A stretch of 64,000 nucleotides of DNA from Leptothoe kymatousa TAU-MAC 1615. GTDB taxonomy: Bacteria > Cyanobacteriota > Cyanobacteriia > Phormidesmidales > Phormidesmidaceae. A program made the position numbers and the translations under genes. Every line of letters begins with the position of its first letter. Within the stretch, counting starts at the first letter, position 1. Below the pieces are notes generated by a model, which saw only the letters and a list, made by a program, of their open reading frames with translations, did not search any database and had not been told where the DNA came from. Shown piece after piece: positions 15,490-49,923 of this stretch. The DNA is taken from assembly GCF_018739865.1 (NCBI RefSeq), contig NZ_JADOER010000005.1, forward strand, positions 109,431 to 173,430, written 5' to 3'.

Positions 15490-15590
15490 AGGAGACCCGG
15501 AGACTACGCCTATCTCAAGCATCCCGTATTGCTGCTACCTTCCGGTCCTGACAAGATTTGGGCGTTGCGATCGCATAGATCCGAGTCAGC
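15490..15590 (-). ncRNA. ffs: signal recognition particle RNA (4.5S type)
   Basis: On the minus strand the SRP RNA tetraloop domain is unmistakable: TTGTCAGGACCGGAAGGTAG followed by CAGCAATACGGG. The flanks form the long stem: GACTCGGA at the 5' side pairs with TCCGGGTC at the 3' side, and CTATGC with GCGTAG. Size is about 95-100 nt; the exact ends are approximate. It partners Ffh in membrane targeting of nascent proteins. A HIP1 octamer lies inside the 5' strand of the stem. The ORFs called here are spurious. Confidence 0.92.
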
Positions 15591-45090: not shown

Positions 45091-45984
45091 ATGACTCAAC
45101 CAGCTACCCCCCAAACCCATTTCTGGACCTGGCAAGGCTTTTCCATCCGCTACCAAACCGCAGGTACCCAGGGCCCACCACTACTCCTCATCCATGGCTT
45201 TGGGGCCCACAGCGACCACTGGCGCAAAAACCTACCCGAGCTCGGGCAAACCAACCGTGTCTACGCCATTGACCTCATCGGCTATGGCCAGTCGGCTAAG
45301 CCTGCACCGGGGCACCCCATAGACTACACCTTCGAAACCTGGGGACAGCAGGTACTGGACTTTTGCCAGGAAATCATTGGTGAGCCTGTTTATCTGGTGG
45401 GTAACTCCATCGGCTGCATCGTTGCCATGCAAGCCGCCACCATGGCTCCAGCCCAGGTACTCGGTCTTATCGTTCTAGACTGCTCCCTCAGGCTACTGCA
45501 CGATCGCAAGCGGTCCACCCTGCCCTGGTATCGCAGTGCCCCCACCCCACTTATTCAGGCCATCCTTAACTACAAGCCCATCGGCAAATTTTTCTTTGCC
45601 CGTTTGGCGAAGCCCCGCACACTCAAAAATATTTTGCGCCAGGCCTATGGTCGCAAAGCAGCGGTGAATGACGAACTGATTGAGCTGTTGTTAGCGCCTG
45701 CCCGCGATCCAGCAGCGGTGGATGTATTTGTAGCATTTATTAGTTATTCCCAAGGCCCGTTGCCTGAAGACTTGCTGCCCCAGCTCACTTGTCCAGTGTT
45801 AATGCTGTGGGGAGAAGACGACCCGTGGGAACCTATTGCCCTAGGTCGGGAACTCAGTACATATGAGAGCGTCGAACAATTTATACCACTCGAAGGAGTG
45901 GGCCATTGCCCCCAGGATGAAGCACCCGAATTGGTTAATCCATTGATTAGCGAATGGGTGCAGCGGAAGGCGGCAGTTGTTTAA
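45091..45984 (+). CDS. alpha/beta-fold hydrolase
   Basis: 297 residues. Oxyanion/strand motif LLLIHGFGAHSDHWRKN, nucleophile elbow VGNSIGCIVAM (Ser), acid LWGEDDPWEP (Asp) and GVGHCPQDEAPE (His) form a complete catalytic triad. The cyanobacterial sequence is close to the family often annotated as 2-hydroxy-6-oxohepta-dienoate hydrolase-like or chlorophyll-related esterase; the substrate is unknown. Confidence 0.85.
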   Translation: MTQPATPQTHFWTWQGFSIRYQTAGTQGPPLLLIHGFGAHSDHWRKNLPELGQTNRVYAIDLIGYGQSAKPAPGHPIDYTFETWGQQVLDFCQEIIGEPVYLVGNSIGCIVAMQAATMAPAQVLGLIVLDCSLRLLHDRKRSTLPWYRSAPTPLIQAILNYKPIGKFFFARLAKPRTLKNILRQAYGRKAAVNDELIELLLAPARDPAAVDVFVAFISYSQGPLPEDLLPQLTCPVLMLWGEDDPWEPIALGRELSTYESVEQFIPLEGVGHCPQDEAPELVNPLISEWVQRKAAVV

Positions 45985-46163: not shown

Positions 46164-46290
46164 CCAAAAAAGTACCCTGGAAGCTTATGCAACGCAGGGT
46201 AGGGGCAACAGTTAAACGCTTGTGCTGTCAATACAATGACTTAGGCCAAATTCTAAAATAGGTCATTTGTGCCGATTCCTAGAGTGTCCA
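46164..46290 (-). ncRNA. candidate small-RNA gene, copy A of four
   Basis: Read on the minus strand, the unit has a conserved upstream box (GGACACTCTAGGAATCGGCA), a -10-like TGTATT, then the RNA body starting near CAGCACAAGCGTTTAACTGT, a C-rich TTGCCCCTACCC, and a hairpin TACCCTG...CAGGGTA followed by CTTTTTT, a canonical intrinsic terminator. The body would be ~60-70 nt. Copy A has a different hairpin interior (GCATAAGC) but keeps the outer stem. The identity of the core to the other copies is near complete. No known RNA family is recognised. Confidence 0.7.
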
Positions 46291-46645
46291 TCGTTCCACT
46301 TGAGCCTATATTTCAGTCGTAAAGCCGAACAGCTTTATGGCTGTTTTTATTATTTAGGTCGGTTGCCCCAATTAGCTATCAGATATTGAGTTCATCCACT
46401 TAGAAGCCATCTATGGCAAAGCACGCAGCCTTGCACAGGATAGGTTGTAGCGTACAGAAAGATCTGCTACATACGTTTGCTAGAGTGCTTTTACGTTGGT
46501 CGGGCACGAGCGTGTATGTTCGACAGTAGGGGACAGCCCACCAATAAACATTCAGGGAACAGCATGGGGAGATTGCACCTACTCCCCATCCCCAGGGATG
46601 CCAGGGGTTAGGCCCAAAACAAACATAATGCCTCACTTTTCCCTG

Positions 46646-46773
46646 CCCAAAAAAGTACCCTGTGACCAAATGGTCCAACAGGGTAGGGGCAACAGTTAAA
46701 CGCTTGTGCTGTTATTAGAATCGCTTAAATATCGGGGCATGCGATTTGTCCTATGCCGGTTTTTAGAACGTCC
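46646..46773 (-). ncRNA. candidate small-RNA gene, copy B of four
   Basis: Same architecture as copy A: upstream box GGACGTTCTAAAAACCGGCA then CATAGGACAAAT, -10-like TCTAAT (plus-strand 46714-46719), core CAGCACAAGCGTTTAACTGT, terminator hairpin UACCCUGU-UGGACC-AUUU-GGUC-ACAGGGUA with six U. The inner stem GACC/GGUC differs from other copies yet still pairs, which is evidence for selection on RNA structure. Confidence 0.75.
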
Positions 46774-46905
46774 TGACTTTATTAACATCAACGAACAAAA
46801 TGTAAGCCAGGATACTTAACTGATTCAAAAGACTCTTTTGTAATCGCCGCAACATCTTCAACGGTCTACGGTACAGATGTTGCAATGGGCATCCAATTAA
46901 AAATT

Positions 46906-47034
46906 GCCAAAAAAGTACCCTGCGACCGAATGGTGCGACAGGGTAGGGGCAACAGTTAAACGCTTGTGCTGTTATTAGAATCGCGCAATCCCATTGCCTA
47001 AGCTATTTGTCCTATGCCGATTTCTAGAGTGTCC
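46906..47034 (-). ncRNA. candidate small-RNA gene, copy C of four
   Basis: Upstream box GGACACTCTAGAAATCGGCA then TAGGACAAAT, -10-like TCTAAT in GCGATTCTAATAACAG, core CAGCACAAGCGTTTAACTGT, TTGCCCCTACCCTG, and terminator hairpin with GCACC-AUUC-GGUCG and CAGGGTACTTTTTT. Downstream on the minus strand, a further inverted repeat GCAACATCT/AGATGTTGC (near 46852-46884) lies between this copy and copy B; copy A is followed by a similar AGATGTTG/CAACATCT hairpin near 46031. Confidence 0.78.
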
Positions 47035-47345
47035 ATAATCCACATAGGGCCTTGCTTTCAGACATGTGAGCCAAGACACTTGATGTTGTGATCTAGGTCA
47101 CTTTCTAGATGGCCAACAACAAATCGATATTGCCGTTTCAAAGGCTGCATCCATTTGTGAGATCTCCTAGCCCCAGATAGTTGGCCAAGGCTTGGGCGAT
47201 TAAGTAATTCTAATTTAGCCAGACTCACTCCGAGGGAGGCGCTGCACGCACGACACTGCTAAGTGCCTTGGAAATTAAATTTATTGCCATATTGCAGATG
47301 GGTTCGATAGGCTGAATTAACGTCCCTCCTTCTCTCAATAGGCCA

Positions 47346-47768
47346 ATGAACAAGCGTCATCTTGAGTTAACCGCTACTGACCGCAGGGAGCTAGAAGCCC
47401 TTTTGAGCAAAGGTCAACTGAGCGCACGGCAATTCAAACGAGCGACTGGTCTGCTGGAATTGGACCGTGGCAAGACCATTCAATCCGTCTGCGAAACCTT
47501 GGGGATTAACCGGGTCACGGTCAGAAAGTGGCGTGACCGCTATCAACAGGAGGGACTCGCCATGCTGACGGATAAGCCTCGTCCCGGTCGTCCCATTGAA
47601 ATCGATGGCGGCCAACGAGCAAAGGTCACTGCCCTAGCCTGCAGTGATGCTCCAACGGGGCATGCGCGCTGGACGTTACGGCTGTTAGCAAACAGAGCCG
47701 TTGACTTGAACTACTGTAAGCATCTTTCCCACACTCAGGTGCGTGAGATTCTTAAAAAAATGCCTTAA
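47346..47768 (+). CDS. IS630 transposase, N-terminal frame
   Basis: 140 residues with a helix-turn-helix DNA-binding domain (GKTIQSVCETLGINRVTVRK, RWRDRYQQEGL) and a second HTH (TGHARWTLRLLANRAVDLNY). It ends at a stop after an A7 run (47754-47760). Slipping back one base on this run continues as NALKPHLKKTWCIGALTSVF into the next frame, so full-length transposase is probably made by programmed -1 frameshifting, as in other IS630 elements. Confidence 0.85.
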   Translation: MNKRHLELTATDRRELEALLSKGQLSARQFKRATGLLELDRGKTIQSVCETLGINRVTVRKWRDRYQQEGLAMLTDKPRPGRPIEIDGGQRAKVTALACSDAPTGHARWTLRLLANRAVDLNYCKHLSHTQVREILKKMP

Positions 47769-47827
47769 AACCTCATCTCAAAAAGACGTGGTGTATTGGG
47801 GCGCTCACCAGTGTCTTTATTGCCAAA

Positions 47828-48463
47828 ATGGAACATCTATTAGCGCTATATGCTCGCCCCTATACTCCACGCTATCCAGTGGTGTGTTTTGATGAACGCC
47901 CGTGCTTTTTGATTGGTGAGGTCATGAAGCCATTCCCCATCAAAGCTGGGCAGGCTAAAAAAGAGCATTATGCCTATGCAAAAAATGGCTCTTGTTCATT
48001 ACTTGCGGCGATTGAGCCGCTGACTGGTGAGCGGTTGGCTCAGGTGCATACGCGACGAACCAAACGAGAATACACCCTGTTTTTTCAAGCCTTAGCTGCT
48101 CGCTATCCCAATGCTGCCAAAATCCAGGTGGTGCAGGATAATCTCAACACCCATAATGCCAGTTCTTTCTATGAATACCTGACCCCTGAGGAGGCCTTTG
48201 CTTTAGCCCAACGGTTTGAGTTTCACTACACCCCAAAGTCAGCCAGTTGGCTCAATATGATTGAAATCGAGTTTTCTGCACTGGCTAGAGGCTGTTTGCA
48301 TCAGCGCATTCCCACACAAGACCAATTAGAGCAAGAGGTGCTCGCCTTGGTGCAAGAACGGCATGACCAGCGTATCCGCATCAATTGGCAATTTTCGCTG
48401 GAGGCTGCACGCGATAAATTTCAGAAGCATTATCTCAAAATTCGAGAAGATAAGACTCTCTAA
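47828..48463 (+). CDS. IS630 transposase, C-terminal DDE frame
   Basis: 211-residue ORF covering the catalytic domain: VVCFDERPCFLI (first Asp), IQVVQDNLNTHNA (second Asp) and SWLNMIEIEFSAL (Glu), the DDE triad. The true protein begins upstream by frameshift from the A7 run; the internal ATG at 47828 is unlikely to be a natural start. All catalytic residues are intact, so the element may be active. Confidence 0.85.
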   Translation: MEHLLALYARPYTPRYPVVCFDERPCFLIGEVMKPFPIKAGQAKKEHYAYAKNGSCSLLAAIEPLTGERLAQVHTRRTKREYTLFFQALAARYPNAAKIQVVQDNLNTHNASSFYEYLTPEEAFALAQRFEFHYTPKSASWLNMIEIEFSALARGCLHQRIPTQDQLEQEVLALVQERHDQRIRINWQFSLEAARDKFQKHYLKIREDKTL

Positions 48464-48545
48464 AATGGCAGAAAACTTATTTTCCAAAGTACTAAGGGGA
48501 ATGCACATAAATAAAATCCCCATCACAGAATATGCCGTAGGACCT

Positions 48546-48643
48546 CCTCCCCTTAAGAAGGGGAGGTGCCGTAGGCGGAGGGGTCTGGACCGATAGCGCT
48601 AACTGTCGATAACCCCCTGTAAGTCCCCCTTCGTAAGGGGGAC
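48546..48643. repeat. pair of GC-rich palindromes (cyanobacterial REP-like)
   Basis: CCTCCCCTT-AAG-AAGGGGAGG (48546-48566) and GTCCCCCTT-CGT-AAGGGGGAC (48623-48643). Each is a perfect 9-bp stem with a 3-nt loop. Such CCCCTT/AAGGGG repeats with adjacent GCCGTAGGCGGAGGGG are common interspersed elements in cyanobacterial genomes. The gap 48494-48882 has no gene. Confidence 0.75.
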
Positions 48644-48882
48644 AGCACACCTCAAACATGTCTCAAAGAGGTAGATTATTTTCATGCAGACGCCTAAGTT
48701 CTTGATGCCTAGTGCAGCGTCAACGCTAAAAGTTGGAATTGAGTCGGTGAATCGTGATGAGGTGCAGCCACGTTGTAAGCGATTCTCATCGCTCCCAAAT
48801 CTGAGTCTTGACCGCTCACCAGCTTGAAAAGCTGTGTATTGATTTCTCTTGCCTAAGACGAGTCTATGAAGACTGTAAAATG

Positions 48883-49013
48883 CCCAAAAAAGTACCCTGC
48901 GACCGAATGGTGCAACAGGGTAGGGGCAACAGTTAAACGCTTGTGCTTGTTATTAGAATCGCTTAACCATGGCCTAGATGTAGGGTGTTCTATGCCGATT
49001 TCTAAAACGTCTA
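48883..49013 (-). ncRNA. candidate small-RNA gene, copy D of four
   Basis: Most upstream copy when read on the minus strand, separated from copy C by the IS630 element. Box GACGTTTTAGAAATCGGCAT, -10-like TCTAAT, core with a one-base insertion (AACAAGCACAAGCG), TTGCCCCTACCCTG and terminator GCACC-AUUC-GGUCG-CAGGGTAC-TTTTTT. The spacing between the upstream box and the -10 differs slightly from the other copies. Confidence 0.75.
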
Positions 49014-49078: not shown

Positions 49079-49510
49079 TCAGTGCAAACTATAAATCGGT
49101 AGCTCCGTCGCTAGCCGGCTTAGCCCTAAACCAATGACAGAAATGAACAGCAGCGTCACAAAGGACAAACTGTTGCCAATATTGCGAATTAACAGCTCCA
49201 CCCGCAGTAATAGAGCTGCGGCCAACATCACCAGAAAATAGATAAAAATCTGAATCCAGGACACAATCACGACCGCTAAGGAAGCCATGACTAGAGCCAT
49301 GACGGTATAGCCCACGTCGGACTGAAACCCCAGTAAGAAAAAGTTGCGCAGAGGTTTCCACATCACCGTCAGCAAAGCAGATTCGATGGCAGCGTGGCCC
49401 AGGGCTAACCACCACACTAGGTCAGAGCTATGGCGGGAGTGCAAAAACGCACCAAACCCCATATAGGCCAACACAAGCAACAGGGACGATAGCCAGGGCA
49501 GTTTTTTCAT
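49079..49510 (-). CDS. conserved membrane protein (four to five helices)
   Basis: 143 residues from MKKLPWLSSLLLVLAYMGFG (ATG 49510); the track's extension overlaps the ferredoxin gene. Hydrophobic segments cover most of the length, including ALVMASLAVVIVSWIQIFIY and FVTLLFISVIGLGLSRLATE. It starts 9 bp after the ferredoxin stop, so the two form an operon. The function is unknown; similar paired genes occur in cyanobacteria. Confidence 0.65.
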   Translation of the reverse strand: MKKLPWLSSLLLVLAYMGFGAFLHSRHSSDLVWWLALGHAAIESALLTVMWKPLRNFFLLGFQSDVGYTVMALVMASLAVVIVSWIQIFIYFLVMLAAALLLRVELLIRNIGNSLSFVTLLFISVIGLGLSRLATELPIYSLH

Positions 49511-49518
49511 GATTGCCC

Positions 49519-49923
49519 TCACAGATTGGTGGAAATTGCTTGCACTGGGCAGGTGGGAATACATTGCTCGCACACAATGCACTGGGCCCGATTAAAGACG
49601 AGTTTGAAACTGTCTGGATCTAGTCTGAGGGCTCCTGTGGGGCAAACCCCTGTACATAAGCCGCAGTGCACACAGAGGTCTTCATCAATTAGAATTTCGC
49701 GGCTCGATAGGGATACGCCAATGCCCTGGTTGCGCATCCATTCGATGGCTTCATCGAGCTGGTCGATATCGCCCGATAGTTCGATAACTCCTTTGCCCAC
49801 CTGGTTGGGGGCAACCTGGGCCCGAATAATATTGGCAGCCACATTGAAGTCCTTTGCCAGCCGATAGGTGATGGGCATATTCACCGTCTGTTTTGGAAAT
49901 GTGAGGGTGACGCGCTTTTTCAT
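49519..49923 (-). CDS. NIL domain plus 2[4Fe-4S] ferredoxin
   Basis: 134 residues. The N-terminal ~75 residues form a NIL (ACT-like) domain with VNMPITYRLAKDFNVAANII and GVIELSGDIDQLDEAIEWMR. The C-terminal part has two CxxCxxCxxxCP clusters (CVHCGLCTGVCPTG; CIVCEQCIPTCPVQ). It is a cytosolic electron carrier, found in cyanobacteria and possibly linked with sulfur metabolism or homocysteine formation, where NIL ferredoxins have been implicated in other bacteria. Confidence 0.9.
   Translation of the reverse strand: MKKRVTLTFPKQTVNMPITYRLAKDFNVAANIIRAQVAPNQVGKGVIELSGDIDQLDEAIEWMRNQGIGVSLSSREILIDEDLCVHCGLCTGVCPTGALRLDPDSFKLVFNRAQCIVCEQCIPTCPVQAISTNL

Follow-up and report, generated by a model that had tools for sequence, protein, structure and literature searches.

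Several described small RNAs (sRNAs) offer the closest comparisons for the locus studied here. Yfr1 is an RNA of approximately 55 nt found across the phylum, in which a short invariant unpaired motif is combined with a terminator, and it is likewise tied to the cell wall in Nostoc (PMC4734099, PMC6974561). Qrr and NsiR1 are each encoded by several near-identical copies that possess their own promoter and terminator, while NsiR4, NsrR1, IsaR1, and PsrR1 act in trans, depend on a dedicated transcription factor, and pair near ribosome-binding sites. Regarding the predicted target, the relevant comparison is DipM/NlpD, with which it shares the same domain plan of LysM and LytM/M23 (PMC4015805). 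DipM splits septal peptidoglycan in Caulobacter, and the protein of S. elongatus was assayed as a peptidoglycan hydrolase, full depletion not being achieved (PMC4015805). No sRNA control of DipM is described in the papers found. Against this background, the element described here adds a further family of sRNAs, for which a target is predicted, but no new mechanism. Very probably, it is an activator-driven sRNA acting in trans, the 5' seed of which would pair with the leader of a hydrolase mRNA and lower synthesis of the hydrolase, and which has been amplified in one genus.

The locus lies in the window, the whole stretch of 64,000 nucleotides from Leptothoe kymatousa TAU-MAC 1615 that was analysed. 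An earlier sequence-only reading had described four units (A–D) on the minus strand, and all are present as described, in an array that exceeds chance. The 78-nt repeat family has a copy number of exactly four, and the 19-nt core has four near-exact matches in the whole genome assembly, all the rest carrying at least 3 mismatches. The segment AGCACAAGCGTTTAACTGTTGCCCCTACCCTG displays no difference among the four copies, which are near-identical between AGCACAAGCG and the base of the terminator. The claim that each unit has its own promoter and terminator is also supported, with a predicted length of about 62 nt. Copy A (46166–46226, minus strand, 61 nt predicted) would start with AGCACAAGCGUUUAACUGUUG and end at an intrinsic terminator, while copies B (46649–46710), C (46909–46970), and D (48886–48947), each of 62 nt predicted, lie on the same strand. 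Structure prediction folds each unit into a weakly paired 5' part followed by the terminator, and the units are probably transcribed. By synteny, the array is flanked on one side by a conserved membrane protein of about 150 aa (49079–49582, minus strand), the downstream spacer of which houses the sRNA gene in many families, and on the opposite flank, in the window's family, by an alpha/beta hydrolase (45091–45984, plus strand). An IS630-type transposase (47346–48463, plus strand), split into an HTH_32/HTH_29 ORF and a DDE_3 ORF, is inserted between copies C and D, which are approximately 1980 nt apart, compared with 200–375 nt between adjacent copies in relatives. At 48530–48660, a short GC-rich stretch resembling inverted repeats (CCTCCCCTTAAGAAGGGGAGG and CCCCCTTCGTAAGGGGGA) is similar to a miniature repeat element.

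In comparison with the described systems, several differences can be observed. Here, unlike in Yfr1, it is the 5' end that does not vary, the promoter box is different, and the Yfr1 motif CACUCCUCACACC is missing from all homologues listed here. The view of the sequence-only reading that no existing family could be recognised has held, as the RNA gave no Rfam match above the gathering threshold in the window or among homologues of other families, and none in the region at a relaxed threshold. Elsewhere in the window, the bacterial small SRP RNA (Rfam RF00169, 58.9 bits) is located at 15491–15587 on the minus strand. The analogy with Qrr and NsiR1 arrays stands in part: near-identical copies under their own promoters are characteristic of the genus, whereas most relatives possess a single copy. 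Moreover, there is neither a heterocyst link nor a LuxO/HetR setting here, the sequence is unrelated, and the promoter is not seen to have the sigma-54 architecture of the LuxO-controlled Qrr genes, because a sigma-70-like -10 sits at a fixed spacing from the box. In contrast with the NsiR4/PsrR1 type, the NtcA site GTAN8TAC and the RpaB-type HLR1 motif are each present upstream of 0/98 promoters, and NsrR1 differs in its length of approximately 110 nt and its other locus in Nostoc (PMC6166021). No paper describing this RNA was found, but the tables of a survey that predicted 627 sRNAs in Nostoc (PMC4734099) may list a Nostoc homologue without function. Nothing relevant was found in the literature on the core sequence or on an sRNA adjoining hemB.

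Analysis of 97 promoters demonstrates a 21-bp box that is conserved everywhere, with the consensus GACAcTnnnnAAAnCG(T/G)CACA and, in the form GACAcTnnnnAAAnCGtCACA, a position of about -63 to -42. In the window this putative activating box is found on the minus strand at 46268–46288 (copy A, GACACTCTAGGAATCGGCACA), 46752–46772 (B, GACGTTCTAAAAACCGGCATA), 47013–47033 (C, GACACTCTAGAAATCGGCATA), and 48991–49011 (D, GACGTTTTAGAAATCGGCATA). The box ends 29–33 bp before the -10 in most of the 97 promoters, the spread being wider when the -10 is called automatically as a hexamer. The -10-like element reported earlier, TCTAAT (TGTATT in A), does point to a -10, but one better placed three bases upstream, at GATTCT (CATTGT in A), which is preferred because its distance to the box stays constant across families. 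By this spacing, the -10 is located on the minus strand at 46717–46722 in B, 46977–46982 in C, and 48954–48959 in D, and the divergent CATTGT of copy A is assigned to 46233–46238. The distance from the -10 to the core is 6 to 12 in the 97 promoters. A start 7 nt past the -10 would place the first base of the RNA at the core itself in most families, and would lengthen it by six bases (AGCACA) in the family of the window. All exact matches to the box in 30 genomes (12/12) lie at the sRNA gene. A CRP-type site, TGTGAN6TCACA, occurs with at most 1 mismatch in 4/98 promoters and with at most 2 in 24/98 (shuffles 4), only the TCACA half being conserved. In four relatives of the genus (L009, L010, L011, L014), the ending of the box varies within the array (GGCATA, GTCACA/GGCACA, GACACA), and the order of the endings along the array recurs between these genomes. 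Such differences hint at a different promoter strength for each copy.

The 5' end of the RNA, AGCGUUUAACUGUCC, is conserved everywhere among homologues, and the seed reads AGCGUUUAACUGUUG in the window's family. Conversely, the letters of the hairpin vary, and pairing is kept by compensation. The inner stems noted from the sequence alone, GACC/GGUC in copy B and GC/GC in copy A, were confirmed to pair, and the covariation test proposed with them was passed: nine of the 11 terminator pairs change on both sides, with 60 two-sided cells compared with 17.9 in shuffles, also far above slid controls. Copy A carries a terminator type, ...UUCCAGGG, common to the copy nearest the alpha/beta hydrolase in other genomes of the genus, and because this copy has its own type across the genus, as judged by eye, the array appears older than the present species. 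The proposal that the C-rich segment pairs with Shine-Dalgarno regions fails, since this segment is lost in many homologues, being absent in G063, G008, and G048/G051 and outside the family. It is the 5' end that is conserved, and the site it matches lies upstream of a Shine-Dalgarno sequence and does not coincide with it.

A pattern search of 65 genomes of the window's family recovered 2–4 copies in every searched genome of the same genus (some contigs being cut), including Leptolyngbya sp. PCC 7375, L. Heron Island J, Adonisia turfae, L. cf. ectocarpi, and several MAGs, and a single copy in genera outside it, Phormidesmis and Vasconcelosia among them. The multi-copy array occupies one locus common to relatives. 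The idea of a multicopy regulator is therefore apt for the genus, but the array does not define the family of RNAs, most homologues being single copies. Gene order is fixed in the window's family: thioredoxin-like protein, NIL-ferredoxin, the membrane protein, sRNA, and alpha/beta hydrolase. In other families, homologues in the spacer after the membrane-protein gene have diverged: they share the box and core but have a different terminator stem. A covariance model built from 29 sequences and run on 390 cyanobacterial genomes gave matches with E below 1e-5 in f1, f4, f7, f8, f15, f17, f18, f24, f25, f28, f32, and f34, and nearly all of the 40 matched loci that were read displayed box, -10, core, and terminator. 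By this model, the same gene is spread over at least ten cyanobacterial families. In f32 it lies between a hemB-like gene and DUF4870/prfC, names that derive from sequence recognition rather than a profile search. Tandem sRNA pairs, 94 nt and approximately 500 nt apart, are present in two f24 genomes (L248 in G221, L249 in G256), a duplication independent of that in the window's genus. A likeness of the core to the rplK-rplA spacer of genus g7 (genes named by eye) is in the sense orientation and was taken as chance.

The predicted target emerged when 24 genomes were searched blind, using exact 12-mers, for the complement of the core, CAGTTAAACGCT. Besides the sRNA genes, the leader of the same gene was matched in ten of the 24, in three families. 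This gene starts UUG-AAACGAGC..., with the site just 5' of AGGAGG, and its product has two LysM domains and a C-terminal peptidase M23. In the window's own genome it is located at C3:176344-178275, with the leader GAACAGUUGAACGCUGGUCACUUAGGAGG. Orthologues are present in 53/53 further genomes, nearly all of which have the pairing site; none was recognised in the leader in G056. The site is 20–24 nt upstream of the UUG start, with a gap of 7–10 nt to the Shine-Dalgarno and a further 6–8 nt from there to UUG. In about 55 genomes, the window's included, the RNA 5' end is complementary to this site over 12–18 nt, and the first 15 letters of the RNA match and co-evolve with it. Two traits expected of a trans-acting base-pairing sRNA are thus seen: a free-standing promoter and intrinsic terminator (97 promoters), and a conserved seed that can pair with a likewise conserved site in an mRNA encoded elsewhere. 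The leader itself has no Rfam match. Repeated antisense matches inside an ORF (L288, L376, L385, L388) were discarded, as they cannot pair with that mRNA. In L392-L397, a conserved motif TGTGAT...TCATTGAC lies 40–60 nt upstream of the target site and is perhaps the LysM-M23 promoter or a CRP-like site.

Conservation, anatomy, complementarity, and covariation can all be read from the sequences, and several comparisons, none of them corrected for relatedness, suggest that pairing is under selection. The mean energy of cognate duplexes is -23.0 kcal/mol, compared with -11.9 for shuffled leaders, and cognate pairs outperform permuted partners in 20000/20000 trials (-20.6 versus -19.0), relatedness being uncorrected. 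At seed position 5, U-A is replaced by C-G in site and sRNA together (31 and 10 genomes), and the window's family has U-A in place of C-G at position 14 (29 and 7). In 11 genomes with a readable ribosome-binding site and no detected sRNA, the ribosome-binding site is kept and pairing is mostly lost, the mean being -10.7 and, when the most favourable of all seeds is taken, -13.3 (p = 3e-5, relatedness uncorrected). In genus g7, three genomes in which no sRNA was detected (L450, L451, L458) keep a partial site, (G/C)(C/T)TGTTAAGCGCT, and a diverged sRNA with AGCGCUUAACAGC may be present there.

The same complementarity could be a by-product of a shared DNA operator, at which one transcription factor binds both the sRNA start and the hydrolase leader. 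A regulator site could likewise covary between two loci, and the core is partly palindromic in the window's family (CAAnnGTTnAACnnTTG, 6/8 pairs), but this symmetry is lost elsewhere, mostly to 2–5 of 8. Among 39 distinct seed/leader combinations, transition-type departures at positions 1–13 comprise 30 G·U and 6 A·C (relatedness uncorrected), an excess expected from RNA pairing but not from a site shared at the DNA level. Furthermore, the leader site tolerates one-base insertions and deletions while keeping a fixed distance from the Shine-Dalgarno, and a covarying terminator stands directly 3' of the core, so that an operator is judged improbable. Still more remote, to the point of being scarcely credible, is a non-functional array of REP-like or mobile remnants, or a chain of attenuators: the IS630-type element does sit within the array, but single-copy homologues with the same promoter, core, terminator, and place are found in other genera and families. 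A third alternative, that the RNA acts chiefly on other mRNAs or on a protein, the hydrolase leader being a minor target, is unlikely, if less markedly so. The target search covered exact 12-mers in 24 genomes and 17-mers with at most 2 mismatches in 65, a scope in which shorter seeds are missed, and in some f32 genomes (G320, G248, G289, G195) the duplex is weak, at -13 to -18 kcal/mol. On the other side, one gene alone recurred with a leader site, and the conserved stretch of the RNA is just long enough for it.

In the proposed mechanism, each unit would be a gene for a trans-acting sRNA of about 50–65 nt with a 5'-terminal seed and an intrinsic terminator. Its transcription would be driven by an activator bound to the dedicated 21-bp box, the seed would pair with the 5' leader of the mRNA for the DipM-like LysM-LysM-M23 peptidoglycan hydrolase, and pairing would most likely hinder 30S loading, such that less hydrolase is made. 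In the window's genus, amplification would have raised the number of genes to as many as four, with boxes that differ. The direction of control was considered separately. With the same sRNA and target, pairing could instead activate or stabilise the mRNA, for instance if it protected the leader against RNase E. The site is upstream of the Shine-Dalgarno and not over it, where a 30S footprint has its upstream limit, which counts against steric repression, and when it is blocked in silico the start region becomes slightly more open in 13/39 leaders. However, the mean Shine-Dalgarno accessibility is flat (0.33 to 0.33), and a conserved inhibitory hairpin was not found. Unmasking of the leader by the sRNA is not supported, and activation or stabilisation is considered rather unlikely. 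Since blocking barely alters the predicted accessibility of the Shine-Dalgarno and start, repression would need to be steric, and steric hindrance of initiation is probably to be preferred to stabilisation or activation.

A role in cell separation, and hence in division, would follow from the domain plan that the target shares with DipM, and the findings suggest that cell-wall splitting is under an old control not described before. Only a small number of cyanobacterial sRNAs are known to be shared by many families, and those with a target backed by sRNA-mRNA covariation are rarer still. Because promoter box, seed, single predicted target, and natural losses come together here, function is directly testable. 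The family would provide a handle on septal peptidoglycan splitting in cyanobacteria, a poorly understood process that matters both for the integrity of filaments and for chloroplast division, since plastid DipM is a descendant of the cyanobacterial protein (PMC4015805). More tentatively, and as a possibility we would not yet call probable, the system may be an ancient circuit with nearly a single target, in which a dedicated activator has its sole strong genomic site here, the main partner is the septal hydrolase mRNA, and dosage has been raised by amplification in one marine Leptolyngbya-like genus. If true, such a circuit would link a signal to peptidoglycan splitting, and hence to filament and cell separation, across much of the phylum.
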